From: Prochlorococcus sp. MIT 1223
Lineage (GTDB): Bacteria; Cyanobacteriota; Cyanobacteriia; PCC-6307; Cyanobiaceae
Length of the DNA stretch: 64,000 bases
Direction of reading: 5' to 3'
Assembly (NCBI RefSeq): GCF_034092465.1
Contig: NZ_CP139303.1
Span: forward strand, 896,865 to 960,864
Part shown: positions 18,338 through 31,573 of the stretch, in pieces
Position numbering within the stretch: the stretch's first letter is position 1
How the letters are laid out: each line of letters opens with the position of its first letter
Made by a program: the position numbers and the translations under genes
The notes under the pieces: model-generated
Seen by the model: only the letters and a program-made list of their open reading frames with translations
Databases searched by the model: none
What the model was told of the DNA's origin: nothing

Positions 18338-20335
18338 CTAATTGGTTAACAAAGGTTCACCCGTCTCACTAAAATCAAATCCATTTAATCTAAACATAAT
18401 GCCACCAGCCTTTTGATAGGGCTGATAAAAAAGGCCAAATCCATATGCTCTTCTTTGTATTATGGTCGCGACCTGAGATTTAATAGATTTACCATAATGA
18501 TTAGATCTTTTATCTATATTATATTCTAGTTTAGAGGCGAAAAGTAAAGGCCCATAAATTTGCTGATCAAGTTCTAAACTTATAGTTCTTAGGTCAACAT
18601 TATTATCAAATCTAAAAGGACTTGATCCGTCTTTTATCGTAATTCCTGGCATAACTGAAAATCTTGTATAGTCCAAAAAAGATTTGGTATATGTTCCAAA
18701 AGTAATTTCTGGTCCCAAATCAAAATTTATCAATGCCTGATTAGTACTATTACCATAAAAAGAATATGAAGTACTTATTTTAGTATTAAAATCTAATCCA
18801 GGTTGAATAACATTAGGAGAATAGCGATATTTTAAAATTCCTGAAATTTCATCTTTTTTATTTCGGTAAATAGGAAAGCTTGAATCTAGTGAAGCAAAAA
18901 TATTTGTTTTCCATAACTCTATTAATTTATTATTTTCGTAGTAATCTTCTCCCTCATAATGCCCTGAACCAAGACTCATATTATATCTATGAGAAATTTG
19001 ATTAAATTTAAATTCTCCATGTTTATTTAGTTGAACTCCTGATGCAAAATAAATATCACTATCTCCTAATGAACCATTCCAAACCTTGTCCCTGTAAGAA
19101 GTAAAAAATGAGGTATTAACTTTATCTATATTATAAATTTTTAAATCTCTGCTTAAAGTTCCATTATACCTATAACCATTAGAAAATCTTTGGCTATCAA
19201 ATGTAGTTATTTCAGATGAAAGATTTATATCCCAATTAGATTTTTTACCTTCCAAAGCAACATTCAGACCAAACAGATCTGCAAAATTTGTCTCTGTTGA
19301 TATTTTATCGCTCAAAGGTCCAGCACCATTCTCAATATAATTATTTGTTTTTCCTTTCAAAGCTCTTTGAAGTAAAAATTGTGGTTGAAAATATAATTTA
19401 AAATCTTTCCCTATATCCAAAGGTGAGATTTTCCTTCCAAGGAACAAACCATCTTTCTCTTTATAGTCTAGGCCTATAAACCATTTAACTGCTTCACTTT
19501 TACCTAGTTTTCTATTTTTTAATAAAGGAATAGAAAATTTTTCTTCAATTATTAAACGACTTTTAGAGCATGAGATTAACGTAGAGTTATTGTCTTCCTT
19601 GGCTTCAACATCTTGAGCTTCGATTCTTGCTTGAGTAGGATTTAAGGGGTCATTCGTAAAGCTAATTTTATCAGCAGACCATCCATTCTTTCTTATTATT
19701 ATCCTTGGAGATTGTATCCTCCAATTATTAATAACTCCATCTTTATCTGTAGAGTTAGCTGATAAGCCTAATTCAGAATCAATACTTCCGCCTTTAATAA
19801 TATAACCATCTTTTAGTATTATATTTTTGATAGGTGATACCCTAATTTGATCTTCAGCTAAAACTAATGCTTTTTCCGATTTAATTAAATTTATATCATT
19901 TGAAATTGATTCAATAGAAAGGAGTCCATATACATCATTTACTTCACCAACCTCGCGGATGAAATCATAATTTAGTGAAGACGCTTGAAAGTATTGGGAG
20001 CCCTTTTTAAAAACAACATTTCCTGTAGCAACTAGAATTTTTTTCTGTCTATCATACTCGATTCTATCTGATGCAAGTATAGCTCCATTGAGAATTGCTT
20101 TTACATTTCCTTCAGCAACAAAAACTTTCTCATTTAAATCATATTGACGATCGGCATATAAATTAAGTTCTAGTGGAATTTTCTCTTTTCCAATTTGAAA
20201 ACTTAATTCTTCTATATTATTGGAATTGTCAGAATTATTTTTAAAGGCCCCCAAAGCTTCTATAGGTGTGACACATAAGACTCCTAAGGCAAATATTCCA
20301 AAGACTTTTTTGCAATCTAAAGTTTCCGAAAACAT
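18338..20335 (-). CDS. LptD/OstA-like outer-membrane protein (DUF3769)
   Basis: 665 residues with an N-terminal hydrophobic signal segment (VFGIFALGVLCVTPIEALGA). Residues about 55-150 form an OstA/LptA-like beta-jellyroll (YDLNEKVFVAEGNVKAILNGAILASDRIEYDRQKKILVATGNVVFKKG). The remaining two thirds alternate polar and aromatic residues as in a beta-barrel and end in RAYGFGLFYQPYQKAGGIMFRLNGF. This fits the cyanobacterial DUF3769 proteins proposed to insert LPS at the outer membrane. The transport role is inferred from the fold. ATG at 20335; psbI lies 101 bp upstream on the same strand. Confidence 0.85.
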   Translation of the reverse strand: MFSETLDCKKVFGIFALGVLCVTPIEALGAFKNNSDNSNNIEELSFQIGKEKIPLELNLYADRQYDLNEKVFVAEGNVKAILNGAILASDRIEYDRQKKILVATGNVVFKKGSQYFQASSLNYDFIREVGEVNDVYGLLSIESISNDINLIKSEKALVLAEDQIRVSPIKNIILKDGYIIKGGSIDSELGLSANSTDKDGVINNWRIQSPRIIIRKNGWSADKISFTNDPLNPTQARIEAQDVEAKEDNNSTLISCSKSRLIIEEKFSIPLLKNRKLGKSEAVKWFIGLDYKEKDGLFLGRKISPLDIGKDFKLYFQPQFLLQRALKGKTNNYIENGAGPLSDKISTETNFADLFGLNVALEGKKSNWDINLSSEITTFDSQRFSNGYRYNGTLSRDLKIYNIDKVNTSFFTSYRDKVWNGSLGDSDIYFASGVQLNKHGEFKFNQISHRYNMSLGSGHYEGEDYYENNKLIELWKTNIFASLDSSFPIYRNKKDEISGILKYRYSPNVIQPGLDFNTKISTSYSFYGNSTNQALINFDLGPEITFGTYTKSFLDYTRFSVMPGITIKDGSSPFRFDNNVDLRTISLELDQQIYGPLLFASKLEYNIDKRSNHYGKSIKSQVATIIQRRAYGFGLFYQPYQKAGGIMFRLNGFDFSETGEPLLTN

Positions 20336-20436
20336 ACTATTTAATCAACAACAAAATATTGCACGATATAGCCATCTATCAGCCATATCCAGTCCAGTAT
20401 TTTTCCTGTCTAATTCAGATCCTTTTGGAGGTGAAT

Positions 20437-20565
20437 TTAGTCCTGAGGGCTTTCAAGGTCCTTTCTAGCAGGAACTCTTGACGGATCACTAGCTAAGAAT
20501 CCAAACAAGAAGACTCCTACAAAAAAGAAGACGATGGTATATACGGAAATCTTTAGAGCAAGCAT
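20437..20565 (-). CDS. psbI: photosystem II reaction centre protein I
   Basis: A 42-residue ORF, ATG at 20565 and TAA at 20437. The sequence [30 protein letters not shown] is the PsbI signature: one N-terminal thylakoid membrane helix followed by the charged tail RKDLE. PsbI sits beside D1 and CP43 in the PSII core and aids early assembly. The tail runs a few residues longer than the chloroplast protein. It is separated from psbH by a 323-bp divergent spacer. Confidence 0.95.
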
Positions 20566-20888
20566 AAATAATAACTACTTTATAAAAACCAAAGATATCC
20601 TAATTGATCCCTCTTTTGACGCAGAGTAAAAAAGGTGTTACACATCCTTGAATTGGAATGGATTGAAATGTTTCCTTTGAAAAAGTTTAAGCATCTAAAT
20701 GCACTCCAAAATTCTTGATAAAAACCAGTCTATGGTTTGATTTCCAGTAATTCTTATAGTTGAAAAGGAATCATTTCATAGAAGCAAACCAAAACAATTG
20801 AATAAGTGTTTATAAAATGGTCGTCGGTTGTACGAAAGGTCCCATACAATAATAAAATTCAAACTCTAAAAGAGGACAAAGCTTCGAC
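20566..20888. other. 323-bp divergent psbI/psbH spacer
   Basis: The spacer carries the promoters of two PSII genes facing apart. A TACAAT (near 20844) lies about 40 bp before psbH and is a candidate -10 box. I translated both strands looking for psbN, which often sits next to psbH in cyanobacteria, and found no frame with its conserved DPFEEHED ending. No RNA gene is recognised. Confidence 0.5.
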
Positions 20889-21092
20889 ATGGGACAGAAA
20901 ACTGCTATAGGAAGCCTTCTCAAATCAATAGGCAATTCTGGACAAGGCAAGGTTGTGCCAGGATTTGGCGCGGCACCAGTTATGGCCCTTATTGGTGTTC
21001 TTCTACTTGTTTTCTTAGTAATAATGCTACAGATTTACAATCAATCACTGGTTCTGCAAGGATTTACAGTTGATTGGAATGGAGTGAACTAA
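20889..21092 (+). CDS. psbH: photosystem II protein H
   Basis: 67 residues: a stromal N-terminal part ([26 protein letters not shown]), one membrane helix ([24 protein letters not shown]) and the short lumenal end [13 protein letters not shown], all typical of cyanobacterial PsbH. It stabilises the QB-side of PSII and bicarbonate binding. ATG at 20889 preceded by the AGAGGA ribosome-binding site at 20871-20876. It leads a compact rightward set psbH-tatA-pth-DUF3146. Confidence 0.97.
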
Positions 21093-21123
21093 CTAAATTT
21101 AAATTTCAGATGAGGTTGCTTTA

Positions 21124-21342
21124 ATGAATGTCTTTGGCATTGGCCTGCCTGAGATAGCAGTTGTTGCTGCTATAGCATTGATCGTTTTTGGTCCAAAGCG
21201 ATTGCCTGAGCTTGGAAAAACTTTAGGAAAAACTCTTAAAGGCCTACAAGCAGCCTCATCAGAATTTGAAAGTGAGATTCAAAAAGCAATGAATGAAACA
21301 GATGATTTAAACAATGAAACAGAAGAAGAAAGTAAACAATAA
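21124..21342 (+). CDS. tatA: Sec-independent translocase subunit TatA/E
   Basis: 72 residues: the N-terminal helix MNVFGIGLPEIAVVAAIALIVFGPKRLPELGKTLGKTLKG contains the FGPKRLPELG hinge that defines TatA/TatE, followed by an acidic amphipathic tail (EFESEIQKAMNETDDLNNETEEE). It forms the protein-conducting pore of the twin-arginine pathway in thylakoid and plasma membranes. It sits 31 bp after psbH and 60 bp before pth. Confidence 0.93.
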   Translation: MNVFGIGLPEIAVVAAIALIVFGPKRLPELGKTLGKTLKGLQAASSEFESEIQKAMNETDDLNNETEEESKQ

Positions 21343-21402
21343 ACAGAATCTGCTAATGCAAAATAAAATTAATCACAAGCAAAAGCAAGTGAAGATATTT
21401 TA

Positions 21403-22017
21403 ATGAGCGAAATTGGCTTCAAACTATTAGTAGGCTTAGGTAACCCAGGCTCAAAATATAAACAAACTCGCCATAATATAGGTTTCATGGCATTAGAAAG
21501 ACTTGCAGCACAACAATCAGTTGAATTCAAAGAATCTAAAAAAGTTTTTGGAAGAATTGCAGAAATAGGAATCGGAGATACTAAGCAACGGTTATTGCTA
21601 CCTAGTACTTATATGAATGAAAGCGGGAGATCAATAAATGCAGCCATTTGTTGGTTTGATATAGAGATTAATCAAGTCATAATAATTGTTGATGATATGG
21701 ATCTACCCTTAGGGAAACTAAGGATTAGAAATAAAGGTGGTTCAGGTGGCCATAAAGGTTTAAAGAGTACTATCTCGCATTTAAAGACTGAAGATTTTTG
21801 TAGATTAAGAATTGGTATTGGCGCTCCATCATTAAATCCCATAGAACGAAAAGTAAAAACATGTGAACATGTTTTAGGTTCATTTAGTTCAACTGAATTA
21901 CTGGTGGTTGAAGAAGTAATTAAAAAAATATTGGCCAGTTTAGATTTAATAAAAGAAGTGGGTTTAGAAAGAGCTAGCAATGAAATTAATTCATATAAAA
22001 ACGAATTAATAATATAA
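21403..22017 (+). CDS. pth: peptidyl-tRNA hydrolase
   Basis: 204 residues that release peptides from stalled peptidyl-tRNA. The catalytic histidine lies in LVGLGNPGSKYKQTRHNIGFMAL; other markers are STYMNESGRSI and VDDMDLPLGKLRIRNKGGSGGHKGLKS. Length is normal. ATG at 21403. The DUF3146 gene starts 6 bp after its stop and is probably translated from the same mRNA. Confidence 0.96.
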   Translation: MSEIGFKLLVGLGNPGSKYKQTRHNIGFMALERLAAQQSVEFKESKKVFGRIAEIGIGDTKQRLLLPSTYMNESGRSINAAICWFDIEINQVIIIVDDMDLPLGKLRIRNKGGSGGHKGLKSTISHLKTEDFCRLRIGIGAPSLNPIERKVKTCEHVLGSFSSTELLVVEEVIKKILASLDLIKEVGLERASNEINSYKNELII

Positions 22018-22023
22018 AGTCAT

Positions 22024-22284
22024 ATGTCAAAAAAAAAGCCTTTAACTACTGCTTATGTATGTGTAGAGTGTCAAAATTTCTCTAAGAAATCTATAAAAGG
22101 TAAAGTTTCAGCAAGTAATTTCGAATGGAGCTTTATTTGGAAATTTGGGACTGGAGAGCTAATTATCAAGCCTCCTCTAGGAAGGGCTTTAATTAAAGAC
22201 TCTCTTGAGCGATTTTTAGTGAAAGACGATTACAAATTGGAACCGGGAGGAAGTTATATGTTTACTATTCGGGCCAAATTTTAA
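22024..22284 (+). CDS. DUF3146 family protein
   Basis: 86 residues; the run GKVSASNFEWSFIWKFGTGEL and the end LEPGGSYMFTIRAKF match the small cyanobacterial family DUF3146. It is soluble, probably all-beta, and of unknown function. ATG at 22024, six bases after pth. Its last 20 bp overlap the convergent RuvC-like gene. Confidence 0.85.
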   Translation: MSKKKPLTTAYVCVECQNFSKKSIKGKVSASNFEWSFIWKFGTGELIIKPPLGRALIKDSLERFLVKDDYKLEPGGSYMFTIRAKF

Positions 22285-22705
22285 AACTAGTTTGCACTGA
22301 CCAGGTTAACTTTACATTCAAAAAGTCTTCAGCCAAAATCAATGCTGCTAAAGCATCTAAATTCTCAGATGGTAGTACCATACCATCTGGTAATAGACGA
22401 AGAAAAAAATTTTTAGGCCAAATGTCCCAGTATCTATCTCTCGCCCTTAAGGTAGTATTTTTTTCTTCTTGGAAAATAGTTGGAATATTCAATTCTGAAT
22501 TAATTTCTAAGTTTAAAGAATTACTACTTGTCCCATTCCCAATAATTATTAAATCAACTGAAGCTTCACTTTCCCAGGAATTAATTAAATGGATAGTTGA
22601 TGCTGTCCTTGCAACTTTTGCATCAATAACACTTTGCAGAGATTGATTTACTAAGACTAATCCACATTTGTGCTTACCTGGGTCTATTGCTATCAATCTC
22701 GACAT
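22265..22705 (-). CDS. RuvC/YqgF-like RNase H-fold protein
   Basis: 146 residues. The opening SRLIAIDPGKHKCGLVLVN has the first catalytic Asp of the RuvC/YqgF resolvase fold (DPG motif), IIIGNGTSS matches the second core strand, and ENLDALAALILAED supplies the late acidic pair expected on the last helix. This fits a cyanobacterial Holliday-junction-resolvase-like protein distinct from canonical RuvC and YqgF. Substrate unknown. It follows the DUF3084 gene by 14 bp, so both belong to the ntcA-led leftward unit. Confidence 0.75.
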   Translation of the reverse strand: MSRLIAIDPGKHKCGLVLVNQSLQSVIDAKVARTASTIHLINSWESEASVDLIIIGNGTSSNSLNLEINSELNIPTIFQEEKNTTLRARDRYWDIWPKNFFLRLLPDGMVLPSENLDALAALILAEDFLNVKLTWSVQTSFKIWPE

Positions 22706-22719
22706 CTTAGAAGTTGAAG

Positions 22720-23700
22720 CTAATTTTCATTTAATTTATCATTAACCATCAATTTTATTGATATTGGATCAGCAGTAAAACTATTATTTACAGATACAGC
22801 ATTCAATTTGAGTTTTACCTTTTCTCTTAGAAGTATGCTTTTAGAAATTTTGTTTATCTGAGTTGGATTGATTTTAATTTCAGAACTAAGAGACCCCCTT
22901 CTCTTTACCTCCGCCAAGGTTGAAGAAAGAAGGATCTTAAGATTTGAAGTAAAGTCATCTTCAGTATTTATCTCTTTCAAATCCAAGTTTATACTTGCTA
23001 TGATTTCATCCTTAAGAACAATTTTGGAGTTCTGGATAACCTCAGGGAAAGCATATATATAATCCTCACCCTTTAAGACATTGTCAGCTGAACGAATATG
23101 AACCAACCAACTTCCTCTTTTTCTTATTATTTGCTCTAATTTTTTTATATGATCTTTCCTAATTAATAATATTCTTTTATCAGGCTTTTCTCCTGGCTTT
23201 ATTTTTAAATAAGAGTAATAATTGGCGATTTGAAGAAGATTCTCTATTTTTTTCTGAATTTGATCTGTATCTTTTATAGAAATAACAGAACTTGCCAAAG
23301 ACTGACCACTGCTTATCACTACATCACCTCTTCTAAGTGCAATGAAATTATTCTCAACTTGCTTTAATACTTTTTCACCATTAACAATTCTATCTTCTAA
23401 GGTTTGTCTTTCATTTTGTAAGGCTAATAGATCTTCTCTATTATTCTGTAATTTAGATTGGAGATCTTTTAATTCAAATAATCCTACTCTCAGTTCCCTA
23501 CTAACCAATAACATAAGACTTAGTGAGATAGCACTAATCAAACTGCCTGTAATAACAGTTATAAATACAGCTGTTCTTCTAGGCCTTAACTTAAAGAGAC
23601 TTAGTCTTGCCTTACCAATACGACTTCCAAGTAAGTCCCCTAGAGTCGACAGGAGTCCACCAAGAATTAACAAAGAAATAATTAGGAGCCAACCTGTCAC
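22720..23700 (-). CDS. DUF3084 membrane-anchored coiled-coil protein
   Basis: 326 residues. Two N-terminal membrane helices (GWLLIISLLILGGLLSTLGDLLG and TAVFITVITGSLISAISLSLMLLV) enclose the motif GSRIGKARLSLFKLRPRRTA. A coiled coil follows at about residues 75-125 (LFELKDLQSKLQNNREDLLALQNERQTLEDRI), then a globular C-terminal part. This is the DUF3084 architecture found in cyanobacteria and some other bacteria; no function is assigned. The start is GTG at 23700. It lies 63 bp after ntcA and 14 bp before the RuvC-like gene. Confidence 0.85.
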   Translation of the reverse strand: MTGWLLIISLLILGGLLSTLGDLLGSRIGKARLSLFKLRPRRTAVFITVITGSLISAISLSLMLLVSRELRVGLFELKDLQSKLQNNREDLLALQNERQTLEDRIVNGEKVLKQVENNFIALRRGDVVISSGQSLASSVISIKDTDQIQKKIENLLQIANYYSYLKIKPGEKPDKRILLIRKDHIKKLEQIIRKRGSWLVHIRSADNVLKGEDYIYAFPEVIQNSKIVLKDEIIASINLDLKEINTEDDFTSNLKILLSSTLAEVKRRGSLSSEIKINPTQINKISKSILLREKVKLKLNAVSVNNSFTADPISIKLMVNDKLNEN

Positions 23701-23763
23701 GGAAAAATCAAAATTGGTTTATCAGAAAGACAAACTAGAACTATATTTTGACACTAATGGGTT

Positions 23764-24504
23764 TCAGTTGAAACGTTTTGCAAGGGCAATGGGATCAAAT
23801 ACCGTAATTTTCTTACGATCAATTTGTAAAAGTCCTGAATTTCGTAAATCTCCTAACAATCTTGTAATTGTTACTCGAGTCGAGCCAATTGCTTCCGCAA
23901 TTGCCTGATGAGAAAGTCTTAAGTCAATGGTGATGCCTTTCTCTCCAGGCATTCCAAAATCTCTGCAAAGGACTAAAAGGAAACTTACCAATCGTGAAGA
24001 CATGTCTCTATGAGTCAAAGTTTCTATCATCGTCTCTGTTTGCAAGATTCTGCTTGATAAACCTTGCAACAAAAGTAGTCCTACAGCAGTATCTTCTTCA
24101 ATAGCTTTCCTAACAGATGTAGCTGGAGCTGTAATCATCTCCACTCTTGTAAAAGCAACAGCATGGTAAAAACGGTCTGAGCGATGACCTGTAATAAGGG
24201 ATAAAACTCCGAATAAACTATTTTCCCTAAGCAAAGCTACGGTTATTTCCTCACCTGATTCATAAACTCTAGATAATCTAACCGCACCGCGTTTGATTAA
24301 GTACACCCTTTCGGCAGGATCTCCTGGGAAAAAAATTGTTTTAGATCTATCAACAATCTCTGTACAAGCTCCTTCAAGAGATTTAATTACTTCAAAAAGT
24401 GTGGCTTTAGTTAATGAGCCATCTACATTAGAAGAATTAACCGAGTAGTGATTTCTCAATTTCGTCTGATTTGAGCGACTAAAGCCTCTTAGGGGGGTAA
24501 CCAT
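23764..24504 (-). CDS. ntcA: global nitrogen regulator NtcA (CRP family)
   Basis: 246 residues. The cyclic-nucleotide-like beta-barrel occupies about residues 40-150 ([47 protein letters not shown]), where NtcA binds 2-oxoglutarate instead of cAMP. The DNA-binding helix-turn-helix [25 protein letters not shown] lies at about residues 200-224 and carries the residues that read GTA-N8-TAC. The N-terminal ~25 residues are an extension relative to freshwater NtcA. ATG at 24504. An NtcA box sits just upstream, so it is likely autoregulated. Confidence 0.97.
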
Positions 24505-24525
24505 AGCGACAAAGCCAATGCATGG

Positions 24526-24567
24526 AGATTAATTTGACACTCCAAAAGCATATGTAGCTATGAGTAC
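24526..24567 (-). promoter_or_regulatory. NtcA autoregulatory promoter of ntcA
   Basis: A perfect GTA-N8-TAC palindrome is at 24554-24567. Going leftward, exactly 22 bases separate it from TAATCT (24531-24526), which fits TAN3T. The implied start is near 24519, giving a leader of about 15 bases before the ntcA ATG. Positive autoregulation of ntcA through such a site is established in several cyanobacteria; here it is inferred from the site and spacing. Confidence 0.8.
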
Positions 24568-24781
24568 TTTTTTAAGTCTTAGTGAAAAGGAATCAAGTTA
24601 AACAAATTCAGCAAAAAGATTTGCAGAAAAAGTAATCCACGCCTTTCAGACACAGGTTTCATTTGATTCATAGTAATTTTCTGCACTCACTTCTCAAGAG
24701 CACTACCTATAGTGTTAAAAAAGTTGTTATACAGAGCAACAACGCTAGATTGAAAATCATGACTGACTTTTCAGTGAATAA

Positions 24782-25369
24782 ATGACTTCAAGCCTTTGGG
24801 ACATAAAGGATTACTCAGATAGCAGGGCTGTTGGATTGCAACCAGTACATCAAGTATCTAGTAAATTCCCTTTACATTTAGTTGTCCCGCAAGGACAATT
24901 ACAAATTCATACCGCTTCTTTTAGAGGAAGTTTCTCAATAGTATTAAGCGAGGCCATAAGAGCAGCTGGATTAGGAAGCAATGTACTAATAGCTCAATTT
25001 CTAAAAGGAGGAGTAAATCAAGGGCCTAATCAAGGAATTAATCTTTGTGGCGGACTAACGTGGATAAGACCAGATTTACCTTTCTGCTTGAACAATAAAA
25101 AGGAGAATACATCAACCCAAAAGGAAACCGATATTCGCAAAGCAATAGGAAATGTATGGGAGAGATGTAAGGAGAGTTTATCTTCAAAAGCAATCAATCG
25201 ATTAGTACTAGATGAAATAGGTATGGCAACTTCATTAGGTTATATAGAAAAAAGTGATTTAATTTCTACTCTGAAAGGACGGCCAGCCGAAACAGATTTA
25301 ATTCTGACAGGACCTTCAATACCAGAAGAAGTCCTGGCAATGGCCGACCAAGTAACTGAACTTCGTTGA
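24782..25369 (+). CDS. CobO/BtuR-like P-loop protein with degenerate Walker A
   Basis: 195 residues resembling ATP:corrinoid adenosyltransferases of the CobO/BtuR type: LRAAG-like helix (SEAIRAAGLGSNVLIAQFLKGG), GLTWIRPDLPFC, and a Walker-B-like RLVLDEIGMA, ending in LILTGPSIPEEVLAMADQVTELR. The segment that should be the P-loop reads HTASFRGSFS at residues 43-52, with no GKT or GKS lysine. It may therefore be a non-adenosylating paralogue or use a changed site. ATG at 24782; dcd follows 10 bp downstream, so they share a transcript with thyX. Confidence 0.75.
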   Translation: MTSSLWDIKDYSDSRAVGLQPVHQVSSKFPLHLVVPQGQLQIHTASFRGSFSIVLSEAIRAAGLGSNVLIAQFLKGGVNQGPNQGINLCGGLTWIRPDLPFCLNNKKENTSTQKETDIRKAIGNVWERCKESLSSKAINRLVLDEIGMATSLGYIEKSDLISTLKGRPAETDLILTGPSIPEEVLAMADQVTELR

Positions 25370-25379
25370 ACTTCAAATA

Positions 25380-25973
25380 ATGCTCAAAAACGATCTCTGG
25401 ATAAAGCAACAAGCAGATGCAGGAATGCTGATTCCCTTTCAAGAAAAGTTAATTCGGCATCTAAACCCAGAAGAAAATAAAAATCCTGTTCTAAGTTTTG
25501 GATGTTCTTCTTATGGATATGACCTTCGGCTTTCAGCCAAAGAGTTTCTAATTTTTCGTCATATTCCTGGAACAGTAATGAATCCGAAAAAATTTAATCC
25601 AGACAATTTAGAAACTACAACTCTTCATAAAGATAAAGATGGTGAATATTTTATTCTTCCTGCCCATTCATATGGACTAGGTGTAGCTCTAGAAAAAATG
25701 AAAGTTCCGGAAAATATAACAGTCATTTGTCTTGGTAAAAGTACATATGCTCGCCTAGGAATTATTGTCAATACGACTCCAGCAGAAGCAAGTTGGGAAG
25801 GACATTTAACACTTGAATTTAGTAATAGTTCAGGTGCTGATTGTAGGGTTTATGCAAATGAAGGTATTTGCCAACTACTTTTTTTTGAAGGAGACCCATG
25901 CCAAACAACTTATAGTGACCGCAAAGGAAAATATCAGCATCAACCTGAAAAAGTAACACTTGCTAAAGTTTAA
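25380..25973 (+). CDS. dcd: dCTP deaminase
   Basis: 197 residues. Dcd converts dCTP to dUTP. The opening segment PFQEKLIRHLNPEENKNPVLSFGCSSYGYDLRLS is typical of Dcd of this length class; LGKSTYARLGIIVNTTPAEASWEGHLTLEFSNSS holds the active-site Glu and the substrate-binding Arg and Ser. ATG at 25380. It lies two bases before thyX, which uses dUMP made downstream of this reaction, so the pair forms a dTMP-supply operon. Confidence 0.96.
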   Translation: MLKNDLWIKQQADAGMLIPFQEKLIRHLNPEENKNPVLSFGCSSYGYDLRLSAKEFLIFRHIPGTVMNPKKFNPDNLETTTLHKDKDGEYFILPAHSYGLGVALEKMKVPENITVICLGKSTYARLGIIVNTTPAEASWEGHLTLEFSNSSGADCRVYANEGICQLLFFEGDPCQTTYSDRKGKYQHQPEKVTLAKV

Positions 25974-25975
25974 TT

Positions 25976-26608
25976 ATGAAAATAGTTGAATTTATAACAG
26001 CAACGCCAGATGCAGAAAAAACTATGGCTTATATAGCAAGAGTAAGCAATCCAAGTAATCAAAGTAATGATAATTTTGAGAAGTTAATTAAATATTGTAT
26101 TACCCATGAACATTGGAGTGTTTTTGAGCAATCTTATATGACTTTGCAAATAGAAACTAATCGTGGAATAGCTGCTCAGATTCTCAGACATCGTTCATTC
26201 ACATTTCAGGAATTCTCTCAGAGATATTCAGATAGTACGCAGTTAGGAGAAATACCAATACCAGAATTAAGGCGACAAGATGTAAAAAATAGGCAAAACT
26301 CAACCTCTGACTTATCTGTAGATGTTATCCGAAAATTCGAAAATAAAATCAAAGAGCAATTTGAATTAAATAAAAGTCTTTACGAGGAAATGCTTAATTC
26401 AGGAATTGCCAAAGAGTGTGCACGATTTGTTCTGCCACTTGCTACCCCAACAAGAATATACATGACAGGTTCCTGTCGATCATGGATACACTATATTTCA
26501 TTAAGAACTGCGCATGGAACACAGAAAGAACATATGAAGATAGCTGAAGAATGTAAAAATATTTTCATCAAACAATTCCCTACAGTTTCTTCAGCTATGA
26601 ATTGGTAA
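25976..26608 (+). CDS. thyX: FAD-dependent thymidylate synthase
   Basis: 210 residues. The ThyX signature RHR-X7-S is at residues 71-81 (RHRSFTFQEFS) followed by QRYSD, which binds FAD and dUMP. ECARFVLPLATPTRIYMTGSCRSWIHYISLRT is the second conserved block. ThyX makes dTMP from dUMP with methylene-THF as carbon donor and NADPH as reductant. I saw no thyA in the window. ATG at 25976, two bases after dcd. Confidence 0.97.
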   Translation: MKIVEFITATPDAEKTMAYIARVSNPSNQSNDNFEKLIKYCITHEHWSVFEQSYMTLQIETNRGIAAQILRHRSFTFQEFSQRYSDSTQLGEIPIPELRRQDVKNRQNSTSDLSVDVIRKFENKIKEQFELNKSLYEEMLNSGIAKECARFVLPLATPTRIYMTGSCRSWIHYISLRTAHGTQKEHMKIAEECKNIFIKQFPTVSSAMNW

Positions 26609-26611
26609 TAA

Positions 26612-27175
26612 TCAACCATGACTTCTTGGTTTTATTGAGTCTTGATTGTTTTTTATAGCTAATTTTATATTTGATTGAATTGAATTTTGATTGTTATTTG
26701 TAATGTTTTTACTAGGTATTCTTTCATTTAACAAATAATTAATTGATTTATTAATTTGCTCTTCTGACTGCAAACCTTTTGATACATATATAACTTTAGC
26801 ATCCTTATCTAGGAAAGTTAACTGTGGAACTCCATTGACCTCATATTTATCTATAAGTTCTCCCCACCTTGGATTATCCACATTCAATAAGACAAAGTTA
26901 ACCCTATCAGAGTAATTCTTTTCTATATTGAACATAGAGGGTGCCATTTTCTTACAAACTTCACACCAATCTGCATAAAACTCAAAAACTGTTGGCTTTT
27001 CATTATTAATTGCTTGCATAGGTTCCATAGATTTTTCTGCTAACTGATTTAAAGGGGCTTGAGAATTTAAATTCCCTCTAAGAAATAATAAAATTATTAT
27101 CAAAGACAGGGTCGATATAGTTAAGATTATTTTTTGGAGATTAGTTATAGATTCTGAGCTAATACTTTTCGGCAT
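26612..27175 (-). CDS. txlA: membrane-anchored thioredoxin-like protein TxlA/HCF164
   Basis: 187 residues from the ATG at 27175 (a TTG eight codons upstream is also open). One N-terminal membrane helix (IILTISTLSLIIILLFL) anchors a thioredoxin domain with FYADWCEVCKKMAPSM, whose Cys71 and Cys74 form the redox pair, and the cis-proline segment GVPQLTFLD. TxlA homologs carry reducing equivalents across the thylakoid membrane for cytochrome c/b6f maturation. The tail is Asn- and Ser-rich and looks unstructured. It is 58 bp after trmB on the same strand and ends 3 bp past the thyX stop. Confidence 0.85.
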   Translation of the reverse strand: MPKSISSESITNLQKIILTISTLSLIIILLFLRGNLNSQAPLNQLAEKSMEPMQAINNEKPTVFEFYADWCEVCKKMAPSMFNIEKNYSDRVNFVLLNVDNPRWGELIDKYEVNGVPQLTFLDKDAKVIYVSKGLQSEEQINKSINYLLNERIPSKNITNNNQNSIQSNIKLAIKNNQDSIKPRSHG

Positions 27176-27232
27176 AAGAAGAAAATATAATATTTCCAAA
27201 TTATATCTTAAATAATCGATTTAATAATTAAA

Positions 27233-27895
27233 TTACCTTTTGAATATTCCGCTTAAATTTATGTCATTAGCATTCCTTCTATACAAAACCCTGTAAATCT
27301 TGAGTTGATTAGCCATTGCATAATGCTCACGTTCAGTAACAACAGAAAAAGGGTTTTCATCCAGCCATTCAAAATCATTCAATGGTTCGCGAGTAAAGCA
27401 TTGACTGGAATCAACTAAATCTATCATTGGTTTAATAACAGAAAACACATCACTTTGAAGAAAGAGTTCGGCCCCAGGCTTAAAGGATTTAATTAGTGAT
27501 AAAAGTAAACTAGGCTGCAGGACTCTTCTCTTATAATGCCTTCTTTTAAACCAAGGATCTGGGAATTGAATCGAGACTCTTCTCAGGTTCCCATGGTTAA
27601 GTGTATTAAGCCATTTTTCTAAGCTTACATTTGCATTACAATATGAGAAGTTTAAGTTAGCCAACTTCAATCTATCCTTATCTTTTTTCGCGGATAAGAC
27701 TAGTTTATTGCGAATCTCTATACCTAAGTAATTCCAAGTGGTATCTAGAGAAGCAAGGTCTAGAAGAAAGCGACCTTTTGCACAACCAATGTCTAGATGA
27801 ATTGGCAAATCAATATTCGCAAAGAGATCCTTTACTTGAGGTATCTCTATCGGTAATTGAAAAAATCTACTAAGAGGGTTTACATGCTGCCGCAT
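27233..27895 (-). CDS. trmB: tRNA (guanine-N7-)-methyltransferase
   Basis: 220 residues. SAM-binding motif I LDIGCAKGRFLLDLA is at about residues 35-49, and the TrmB-specific block SIQFPDPWFKRRHYKRRVLQPSLL follows near residue 118, with FLQSDV after it. It methylates G46 of tRNA variable loops. ATG at 27895. The gene leads a leftward pair with txlA. Confidence 0.95.
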   Translation of the reverse strand: MRQHVNPLSRFFQLPIEIPQVKDLFANIDLPIHLDIGCAKGRFLLDLASLDTTWNYLGIEIRNKLVLSAKKDKDRLKLANLNFSYCNANVSLEKWLNTLNHGNLRRVSIQFPDPWFKRRHYKRRVLQPSLLLSLIKSFKPGAELFLQSDVFSVIKPMIDLVDSSQCFTREPLNDFEWLDENPFSVVTEREHYAMANQLKIYRVLYRRNANDINLSGIFKR

Positions 27896-27984
27896 TATGG
27901 AAAAAAATTTTTAACATTCCTTTTAAAAGAAGAATAAACAAATAATGACCAAAAAGCGGTATAACAATTAATGATGAACTATTT

Positions 27985-28611
27985 TTGAGTAAAGCCACCT
28001 TGACTGAGATCCAATACAGAACTTTAGTTTGGCTAGCCTATAGGCTTGCAGCCACCTTTGCATTCGGACTACCTTTAGTCCTTTTAATATGGTCATCTAT
28101 TAAAAAAGAACAAGCGATTTCAAGATTGCTCTCAATATATTGGAAGGTTTCAAGTTTAATTTTCATAAGTATTCTTTTATTAACTAGTAATCAACCAATT
28201 GGATATATAGCTTCTTTTTTCTCTCTAATCTTAAGCATAGTCTCAATATGGTTTTGGGTCGACCTTAATGAAGAGATTGGAGAAATGCCTCTCTGGAAAC
28301 CTTTACCTCTTGCTACAAAGGTTTGGAGATGGGGATTAAGCTTCTTGGGAATATTATATGTTGCCTTAAATTCATTAAGTTTAAAATGTTTTCAAGTTAT
28401 AGACCAATCATTTTGTAATGCTTGGATTATAGGACCTCAAAGTTTACATGAAACAAATAAAATCATCCTAAGATTTCTTTTTGGAGGTAGCTGGAGTCAA
28501 TCTTTAGCTGGTGTTATAGGTTATTTAGCTTTAATTATTTATATAATTGGCTTAATACAATGGCTCCTAATTAGACTACCTAAACATGGAAGAATAGCTG
28601 GTGAATTTTAA
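27985..28611 (+). CDS. DUF3177 family membrane protein
   Basis: 208 residues with about five membrane helices (for example LAATFAFGLPLVLLIWSSI, VSSLIFISILLLTS, YIASFFSLILSIVSIWFWVDL, LAGVIGYLALIIYIIGLIQWLLI). The start RTLVWLAYRLAATFAFG and the Cys pair in LKCFQVIDQSFCNAWIIGPQ match the cyanobacterial DUF3177 family. The function is unknown. The start is TTG at 27985; no ATG is in frame nearby. Confidence 0.8.
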   Translation: MSKATLTEIQYRTLVWLAYRLAATFAFGLPLVLLIWSSIKKEQAISRLLSIYWKVSSLIFISILLLTSNQPIGYIASFFSLILSIVSIWFWVDLNEEIGEMPLWKPLPLATKVWRWGLSFLGILYVALNSLSLKCFQVIDQSFCNAWIIGPQSLHETNKIILRFLFGGSWSQSLAGVIGYLALIIYIIGLIQWLLIRLPKHGRIAGEF

Positions 28612-28675
28612 TCAAATAAAAGATCATATGAGAATTAAGTTTGTTATTAAGATAGTTTTATTTATCTTATATTAA

Positions 28676-31573
28676 TTACAATCTATTTATTATTTCCAAG
28701 CACCTAGAACATAGTTTTGGATGTTTAAGATCCTTACCAATATCATTCTCAAAATGCCAACATCTGTCACATTTCGAACCTCTGGCTTTTGATATCTCCA
28801 AAAGGCAAGTATCATTTTCTATAATTACAAATGTTTCTGCCCAAGGTTCTCCATCTATCTGCAAAGAAGAGACAAGCAACCAGTCACGCAAATTATCTAC
28901 TTCTTTAAAAGATGATTTATCTAGCCAATTCATAGCCTCAGCAAGATAACTATCTCTAATTTCAATACGTAATGACGCCTCAAGTGAGGATCCAATGTTA
29001 TTACTAACTCTACATTCTTCTAACCCTCTATTGACTTCACTTCTTAAATTCCTTAAATAAGAAATTGGTTGAGTTAGGGAATCGTTTACCCATATATTTG
29101 GTACTTTAGGCCATCCATTTTTAAAGACAGATTCTACTTTTGTGTCATAAGGGATATTTTGCCATATATCTTCAGCCATATGGGGTAAAACAGGAGCGAT
29201 CATTCCAGCAAGCCTTTCAATAATTAAGGACAAAACTGTCTGACAAGTCCTTCTAGTCCTATCATTTGGTGCACTAATATAAAGTCGATCCTTCGCAATA
29301 TCTAAGTAAAAGTTAGACAAATCAACGACACAAAAACTTTGAATTGTCTGGAAAAATTTTGAAAATTCATAATTTTCAAATGCACTTGTTACTTCATCTA
29401 TAACTTCACCAGTTCTATGAAGCATCCATTGGTCTATAAGAGGTAATTCATTAATATTAATTTCATTTTTATGAGGATCAAAATCATGCAAGTTTCCCAA
29501 TAAGTACCTAGAAGTATTTCTAATTTTTCTATATACATCAGATAATTGCTTCAAAATATTTGATCCTATCGGCACATCAACCGAATAATCTACAGAGCTA
29601 ACCCAAAGTCTTAAAACATCAGCTCCGAATGGTGGTTCTTTTTTTTGATTAGAACCACCGTTAATTATAATTAATGGATCAACAATATTGCCTAAAGATT
29701 TGCTCATTTTTCTCCCATTTTCATCTAAAGCAAAGCCATGAGTTAAAACTCTTTTATAAGGAGCTTGATTATTCACTGCAACCGAAGTAAGTAGGGAAGA
29801 TTGAAACCATCCTCTATGCTGGTCTGAACCTTCTAGATATAAATCAGCAGGGTAATTCAATCCATTGTTCTGACAACATATAGCTTTCCAACTTGATCCT
29901 GAGTCGAACCATACATCCATAGTATCTGTGCCCTTAATCCATCTAGATGCCTCATTCTTATATGAAGGTGGTAAAAGATCTGATTCATTTTTTTCCCACC
30001 AAATATCAGCACCATGGTCAGCAAATAATGTCTCTATATGATTCAATGTTTCTTCATTTAAAAGAACATTACTTCCATTTCTCTCATAGAAAACTGGTAT
30101 TGGAACTCCCCAAGTTCTTTGTCTAGATATACACCAATCACCTCTATCTTTAACCATTGAAGTAATCCTATTTCTCCCTGAATTTGGTAGCCAATCAACT
30201 GAATCTATAGACTCTAAAGCATTTTCACGAAATCCTTCCACTGAGGCAAACCATTGTTCAGTTGCCCTAAAAATTGTAGGTTTCTTTGTTCTCCAATCAT
30301 ATGGGTACTTATGTTCATAAGGGACCTGTTTTAATAAAGCGCCAGTTTCTTCAAGGGACTTGATAATTACTGAATTAGCATCTTTCAAAACATTTAAGCC
30401 TGCAAATTCACCAGCTTCTTCAGTGAAAATGCCACTTTCATTTACAGGGCAAAGTATTGGCAAGTTATATTTAAGCCCTGTATTAAAGTCATCAACACCA
30501 TGGCCAGGAGCAGTATGAACAAGTCCAGTGCCTGAGTCTATATTTATATAGTCGCCTGCAATGACTACGGGACTATTCCTATCAAACAAAGGATGTTTAT
30601 ATAAAATTCCTTCTAATAGAGAACCTTTTACTTTCGCTTCTTCAAGAAATTTTATTTGAGTAATTTCAGAAACTTTTGAAAGCAATGATGAAGCTAATAT
30701 AATTATTTGACTCTTTCCATATGAAGCAAATGTGTAATCTAGTTTTTCATTAACTCCAATTGCTAAATTTGCAGGAAGAGTCCATGGTGTAGTTGTCCAA
30801 ACAGCAACTTTTATAGATTTGTTATTTAATAACGCAGAGTCTAAACCCTGTTTAATTAATTCCTTGATTAGTTGCTCAGGAAGTTTGACTACTTCAAAAG
30901 TTAAATACACACTTGGGCTAATATGACCTTCTGGATATTCCAGTTCCGCTTCAGCTAAAGCAGTTCTAGAACTAGGACTCCAATGAACAGGCTTAAGTCC
31001 TCTATAGATATATCCCTTAAGCGCCATCTCACCAAATAATTTTATTTGAGCCGCCTCATATTTTTTATCCAGAGTTAGATAAGGGTTTTGCCAATCTGCC
31101 CAAATACCCCATCTCCTAAATCCTGACATTTGACTGGCGACCTGTTTTCTTGCATAGCTGGCTGCCTTTTTTCTAAGTTTTAGAGGAGTTAAATTTTTTC
31201 TTTGTTCTTGATCAAGCGTCTGAAGTACCTTTAATTCAATTGGAAGACCATGACAATCCCAACCAGGAACAAAGTTAACTCTTTTCCCTTGCAGAATTTG
31301 AAATTTATTGATTATGTCCTTAAGTACTTTGTTAAGAGCATGCCCCATATGAAGCTTCCCATTTGCATATGGAGGTCCATCATGCAATGTAAATACAGCA
31401 CCTTTATTATTCCTGCCAAGCTCTAGATCAATTCCGTGATCACTCCAAAAAGCCTGGAGCTCAGGCTCTCGAATAGTGGAATTAGCCCTCATCCCAAAAT
31501 TTGTCTTCAACAGATTTAGGGTTTCCTTGTAGGACGTAATTATAGTTTCGTCCTTTTTTTTATCCTTAGTCAC
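28676..31573 (-). CDS. ileS: isoleucyl-tRNA synthetase
   Basis: 965 residues, class I synthetase. HIGH motif [16 protein letters not shown] lies at about residue 77, the CP1 editing domain has [15 protein letters not shown] and [21 protein letters not shown] appears in [10 protein letters not shown], and the C-terminal zinc site is CDRCWHFEN...CSRC. The start is GTG at 31573. All catalytic and editing motifs look intact. It is encoded alone on the minus strand with a 310-bp upstream spacer. Confidence 0.97.

Follow-up and report, generated by a model that had tools for sequence, protein, structure and literature searches.

A CobO-fold protein without a Walker A lysine co-occurs with class II ribonucleotide reductase in oxygenic cyanobacteria

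What does a CobO-like protein do once its phosphate-binding loop has been replaced, and what ties it to the genes of dUMP and dTMP supply beside it? The question is raised by one gene in the window (the whole stretch of DNA analysed here, 64,000 nucleotides) and by its immediate neighbours:

24782..25369, plus strand: CobO-fold protein without Walker A, PRK07414 ortholog (ORF, 195 aa)
25380..25973, plus strand: dcd, dCTP deaminase, co-directional neighbour, 10 bp after the CobO-like gene
25976..26608, plus strand: thyX, FAD-dependent thymidylate synthase, 2 bp after dcd
23764..24504, minus strand: ntcA, global nitrogen regulator, divergent upstream neighbour (context only)

An earlier note had described a CobO/BtuR-like protein that lacks the Walker A lysine, keeps a Walker-B-like DEI and is fused into a dTMP operon. 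The reading frame, a match to PF02572 and the loop HTASFRGSFS bear out the first part and the gaps of 10 and 2 bp are exact; the genes are adjacent, with no gene fusion.

A CobO fold with a replaced phosphate-binding loop

PF02572 (CobA/CobO/BtuR) matches residues 37–195 of the product with 90.5 bits against a cut-off of 25.7, and Salmonella CobA from the PDB is matched by sequence over the same residues (E 5e-12). An AF2 model built from an alignment to which three distant canonical CobO-like rows had been added (pLDDT 82.6, pTM 0.82) finds its best fold match in Salmonella CobA (4hut; VIA Z 19.6, rmsd 2.8, 150 residues), a match that is not wholly independent of sequence given those three rows. 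The next fold is RecA (Z 12.5); type II thymidine kinases, among them structures with dTTP, match at Z 11.9. An earlier model from 18 near relatives had reached a pLDDT of 54.8, with residues 1–108 below 50 and the P-loop half poor. The TIGR00708 equivalog model scores 78.2 bits, below its cut-off of 167.75.

Three further CobO domains are encoded in the genome, a single contig of 1.796 Mb. A second, canonical cobO, for which the earlier note had proposed a search, is present at C1:1758052-1758570 and encodes 230 aa counted from the first ATG. The tandem two-domain CobO protein PRK07413 lies at C1:1357254-1358393 (L139:6192-7397), with 401 aa and both P-loops intact; its model (NF005647) gives the window protein only 38.6 bits.

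Among NCBIfam models the best is NF005648/PRK07414, which covers residues 26–195 with 148.8 bits, below the curated cut-off of 248 that 52 of the 292 genomes of a phylum-wide sample reach. With members over that cut-off the window protein shares the replaced loop and its conserved arginine, W94/R96, the missing tail and the linkage to dcd. We infer from the best model, the shared motifs and the shared synteny that it is orthologous to PRK07414. Matches to PRK07414 in family f31, which we take to be Vampirovibrionia-like and part of the non-photosynthetic sister group, were rejected; because they reach no more than 109 bits and the single one inspected, L228, retains the canonical TGNGKGKTT sequence in its loop, we treat PRK07414 as limited to oxygenic cyanobacteria.

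Three segments separate the window protein from, or join it to, canonical CobO:

24911..24937, plus strand: replaced Walker A segment TASFRGSFS, residues 44–52, with Arg48, Ser50 and Phe51 at the CobO K, K and T positions
25061..25087, plus strand: segment W94–C102, which in the alignment replaces the GFTW corrinoid segment of CobO
25211..25216, plus strand: retained Walker B-like Asp144-Glu145, from the alignment

Residues 43–52 read HTASFRGSFS where the canonical cobO of the same genome encodes FTGNGKGKTT, and the Walker B-like LDEI is kept. We aligned 117 cyanobacterial ortholog rows, which reduce to 105 distinct cores, 61 of them in the window's family and 44 outside it; L004 and L023, which duplicate the window gene, were left out, as was L022, a distant Heimdallarchaeal sequence with a GRGKT loop. 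The missing lysine holds throughout: not one of the 105 cores carries it, and none has a normal GKT loop. Its position is occupied by serine in 61/61 cores of the window's family and elsewhere by phenylalanine (42), methionine (1) or leucine (1). An arginine replaces the preceding lysine of CobO, two residues before the Walker lysine, in 104/105 cores. The Walker B aspartate is found in 104/105 and the glutamate in 105/105, W94 and R96 are invariant, C102 is present in 93/105, and a QFLKGG segment is conserved. Since the lysine is missing from every core, the arginine is nearly invariant and the DE pair is retained, the replacement is not due to chance; it is ancient and fixed across oxygenic cyanobacteria. 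The name "P-loop NTPase family protein" carried by PRK07414 is accordingly misleading, as judged from the sequences, for no ortholog examined keeps the Walker A lysine.

Two further elements of CobO are absent from the aligned PRK07414 orthologs, namely the GFTW segment and the C-terminal GxKAQxGIEY tail; the window protein ends at TELR. Both have roles in corrinoid handling in CobO and CobA.

The gene is under strong purifying selection, with a median dN/dS of 0.086 over 121 unsaturated pairs of Prochlorococcus orthologs. This value and the fixed loop in 105 cores rule out a sequencing error or pseudogene. A phage or mobile origin was also rejected, as the protein has no cyanophage relative and none in viral contigs, the only hit being a remote one of 26% in a phage of the human gut.

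A neighbourhood of dUMP and dTMP genes

The dcd gene lies immediately downstream on the same strand in all 37 loci of the window's family (17 from one search and 20 picked from another), and thyX lies within 3.5 kb in 33 of them. Conservation of the neighbourhood, on which the earlier reading depended, extends beyond the family: among 20 loci of other cyanobacterial families, our own pick from genomes with an ortholog and mostly one per family, dcd is within 1 kb in nine; 12 have one or more of dcd, dut, comEB and thyX inside 3.5 kb, and eight have none of them. Chance adjacency is rejected on the conserved neighbourhood of these loci. In many relatives the stop codon of the CobO-like gene runs into, or directly up to, the start of dcd (TAATG, TGATG, TAAATG), an arrangement that suggests translational coupling.

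Neither nrdJ nor PRK07413 adjoins the CobO-like gene in the loci viewed, the exception being G235, where PRK07413 is about 5 kb away, and the nrdJ and PRK07413 neighbourhoods viewed show no shared operon. The divergent neighbour is rph, which from its sequence we take to encode RNase PH, in 10 of the 20 loci of other families (e.g. L110, L112, L113, L117 and L118) and in 11 of the 37 family loci. Within window positions 20000–30000 no B12 riboswitch or other known RNA was found at E up to 1. An NtcA-type GTAN8TAC site at 24554–24567, in the gap between ntcA and the CobO-like gene, is not above chance expectation in the window and recurs in 10 of 34 relatives.

Co-occurrence with class II ribonucleotide reductase

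We profiled 80 genomes for PRK07414, class II ribonucleotide reductase (RNR; TIGR02505), PRK07413, the class I RNR small subunit, dcd and thyX. PRK07414 was called present at about 120 bits or more, as orthologs of the family score below the curated cut-off and paralog matches reach about 110 bits or less. It occurs in 48 of the 52 genomes with class II RNR and in none of the 28 without, and PRK07413 in 50/52 and 1/28 (G201). The operon neighbours are distributed otherwise, dcd in 40/52 and 15/28 and thyX in 39/52 and 17/28; these calls required judgement where inteins split the genes, dcd being counted present in G264 and G269 and absent in G348 and G362.

The two RNR classes are nearly exclusive in these first 80 genomes, which the class I search covered: 51 have class II only, 27 class I only, G340 both and G201 neither, the class I small subunit being found in 27/28 genomes without class II and 1/52 with it. 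G201, in which no RNR class was matched, is counted among the 28. It is a single contig of 3.8 Mb (genus g73, family f7) in which neither class II RNR nor either class I subunit was found and which lacks PRK07414 and keeps PRK07413; G364, of the same genus, has class II RNR, PRK07414 and PRK07413. Given this mutual exclusion, PRK07414 and PRK07413 go when a lineage switches to the B12-independent enzyme.

A held-out set of 59 genomes, with PRK07414 status fixed beforehand, gave class II RNR in exactly 49/49 genomes with PRK07414 and 0/10 without; the corresponding PRK07413 figures are 49/49 (48 over the cut-off, and G222 in two pieces) and 0/10. Over all 139 genomes together, PRK07414 is present in 97 of the 101 that have class II RNR and in none of the 38 that lack it. 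PRK07413 tracks the enzyme even more closely (99/101 and 1/38). On an rpoB-fragment tree, a quick one with many weak forks that holds 79 of the 80 genomes (G279 has no rpoB match), Pagel's test associates class II RNR with PRK07414 at p = 6e-8 and with PRK07413 at p = 2e-8; the controls on the same tree give p = 0.39 for dcd and p = 0.18 for thyX.

Because PRK07414 is missing from four of the 101 class II genomes (G204, G269, G407 and G340), it is not absolutely required and the enzyme, NrdJ, can work without it. G340, which has both RNR classes, carries PRK07413 only as a fragment close to the start of a contig. PF02867, tried for the exception genomes, fails to pick up class II RNR in cyanobacteria.

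Most class I genomes still have canonical cobO, which means that corrinoid biosynthesis does not depend on the lost paralogs. G206, G208, G243 and G346 (class I) and G233 (presumed class I) gave no match to CobO of any kind; total loss may have become possible in these five once adenosylcobalamin was no longer needed. Neither PRK07413 nor PRK07414 scores over its cut-off in non-cyanobacterial controls with a sub-cut-off match to the model for the class II enzyme, and class II RNR in general therefore needs no such helper.

One cyanophage, PSS2 (three records), carries PRK07413, with 50.1% identity over 94% of the query and both P-loops intact; its class II RNR has 54.9% identity. The 2009 PSS2 genome paper names the two genes cobO and nrd (PMC2784084). 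The "cobO" of GQ334450.1, at L233:17998-19032, is a two-domain PRK07413 ortholog rather than canonical CobO, and the phage thioredoxin and class II RNR genes lie about 14 kb from it. PRK07414 was not found in PSS2, and a scan of viral contigs gave no match to PRK07413. Since other cyanophages with class II RNR have no PRK07413, PSS2 counts as one supporting case. In several cellular genomes the gene directly upstream of PRK07413, divergent from it, is presumably LarE-like, a sacrificial sulfur transferase (L139:5278-6117, L140, L141 and L145).

Proposed function and known systems

A functional link between PRK07414 and class II RNR or dNTP supply is, in our judgement, very probable. The earlier note had entertained a repurposed corrinoid- or nucleotide-binding protein tied to deoxynucleotide supply and the B12-dependent reductase. 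The tie is supported by the co-occurrence in 139 genomes; the proposed ligand finds no support, and the GFTW segment and tail are gone as well.

For the nature of the link we put forward a non-catalytic CobO-fold accessory of NrdJ that acts with PRK07413 in the maintenance, by supply or repair, of adenosyl-cobamide, a reading with about an even chance of being right. NrdJ and MetH are the cyanobacterial users of B12 (PMC6370689). Because cobO stays in most genomes without NrdJ, the loss of the paralogs with that enzyme would concern the upkeep of adenosyl-cobamide and not corrinoid synthesis. To our knowledge only NrdJ, of these two enzymes, uses the adenosyl form. Upkeep would make PRK07413 a second ATP-using adenosyltransferase and PRK07414 its non-catalytic partner or a carrier for NrdJ.

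In this scheme canonical CobO would adenosylate corrinoids in biosynthesis, and PRK07413 would re-adenosylate, at the expense of ATP, finished cobamide stripped of its adenosyl group, such as spent or light-cleaved coenzyme. The window gene product would be an ancient cyanobacterial pseudo-adenosyltransferase that no longer holds the ATP phosphates in the usual way; as a non-catalytic partner it may receive or protect adenosyl-cobamide, or hand it to or from NrdJ. Being expressed together with dcd, and often with thyX, would couple its dose to dNTP production. The scheme starts from what is observed, namely the fold, the loss of Walker A, the conservation, the co-occurrence of three genes, the dUMP/dTMP neighbourhood and a phage with NrdJ and PRK07413; to this it would add co-expression, physical partnership, cobamide binding and re-adenosylation or hand-over. 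Loss of the corrinoid-contact segment and tail of CobO weakens a corrinoid role for PRK07414, and its absence from PSS2 and its distance from nrdJ and PRK07413 count against the accessory reading.

The main alternative, because the steady neighbours are dUMP/dTMP genes, is a role on the nucleotide side: a binder in the dNTP/dUMP pathway, for instance a sensor of dCTP, dUTP or dTTP that adjusts class II RNR or Dcd and has no corrinoid role. The recurrent partners dcd, dut, comEB and thyX fit such a role, as do the missing corrinoid segment and tail and the resemblance to thymidine kinases, some with dTTP bound. That resemblance, however, is far weaker than the one to CobA (Z 11.9 against 19.6), the phosphate-binding loop is destroyed, and neither dcd nor thyX itself follows class II RNR, so that we hold this role to be rather unlikely.

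We are also doubtful that PRK07414 is a dead regulatory or structural subunit of PRK07413 (or CobO), tuning adenosylation in a mixed dimer and leaving NrdJ untouched. CobA is a dimer, PRK07413 is a tandem of two CobA-like domains, the CobO fold is retained with Walker A lost, and the two families co-vary (both in 47 of the 80 genomes, neither in 28, one in 5; Pagel p = 3e-7). Against a subunit stand the genomes with PRK07413 and no PRK07414 (G204, G269, G407 and G201), a phage that carries PRK07413 alone, and conserved neighbours that are dUMP/dTMP genes and not PRK07413.

A still active adenosyltransferase, with a rebuilt nucleotide site in which the conserved Arg48 stands in for the Walker lysine, could draw on the near-invariant arginine, aspartate and glutamate (104, 104 and 105 of 105) and on QFLKGG, but the Walker lysine and threonine have become Ser/Phe and mostly Phe, GFTW and the tail are lost and a canonical cobO sits in the same genome, which makes it most improbable. 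Just as hard to credit is a passenger gene, linked to dcd by history and tracking class II RNR only through shared loss in a few lineages: on a tree with weak support parsimony counts only seven class II RNR changes, and an independent-pairs test finds four pairs on well-supported branches, too few to reach significance, but the Pagel test with its dcd and thyX controls, the perfect held-out set, the strong purifying selection and PSS2, with PRK07413 beside its class II RNR, speak against it.

Returning to the accessory of NrdJ, its fullest form would make PRK07413 and PRK07414 a dedicated cofactor-renewal system, a reactivase or chaperone, in oxygenic cyanobacteria reliant on class II RNR, renewing adenosyl-cobamide destroyed by light or by side reactions on NrdJ, discarded on the switch to class I and partly borrowed by a phage that has a class II RNR of its own; we offer this only tentatively. 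Adenosyl-cobamide is light-sensitive, and Prochlorococcus and marine Synechococcus make their DNA precursors through a B12-dependent reductase in full light. A dedicated CobO-derived pair that tracks NrdJ across the phylum would explain how the cofactor stays active, and would offer a function open to testing for two conserved families of cyanobacteria whose present annotation goes no further than adenosyltransferase or P-loop NTPase. By its sequence PRK07414 has no P-loop, and the annotation can be corrected; B12-pathway surveys that score PRK07414 or PRK07413 as the cobO step would miscount cobO copies.

No mention was found, in the literature searched, of PRK07414 or of PMM0247, which we take, perhaps wrongly, to be its locus name in MED4, nor does that literature describe a reactivase or chaperone for class II RNR. 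The association of PRK07414 and PRK07413 with class II RNR is new here: no description of it was found, including in the accessible parts of PMC6370689, PMC2784084, PMC5816740 and PMC10452541, and, the search lying mostly outside subscription papers, a prior mention is possible.

Among known systems, CobA/CobO/BtuR (PF02572; Salmonella CobA 1g64 and 4hut) shares with the window protein the homology of the core, the fold, QFxKG and DE, whereas the latter is without the Walker A GxGKGK(T/S), GFTW and the HPFxxGxKAQxGIEY tail. PRK07414 members typically carry the loop R(N/S)FFT, the window protein instead RGSFS. PRK07413 (NF005647) is likewise homologous to CobO, with PF02572 matched twice, and shows the same co-occurrence with class II RNR, but its two domains have intact P-loops and it is unlinked to dcd in the loci viewed. 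PRK07414 would resemble MeaB/MMAA, a G-protein chaperone that delivers adenosylcobalamin to methylmalonyl-CoA mutase (PMC10481361), in loading adenosyl-cobamide onto its client or repairing it there. MeaB is a GTPase, whereas PRK07414 has no P-loop; the likeness between them would be functional and is hypothetical.
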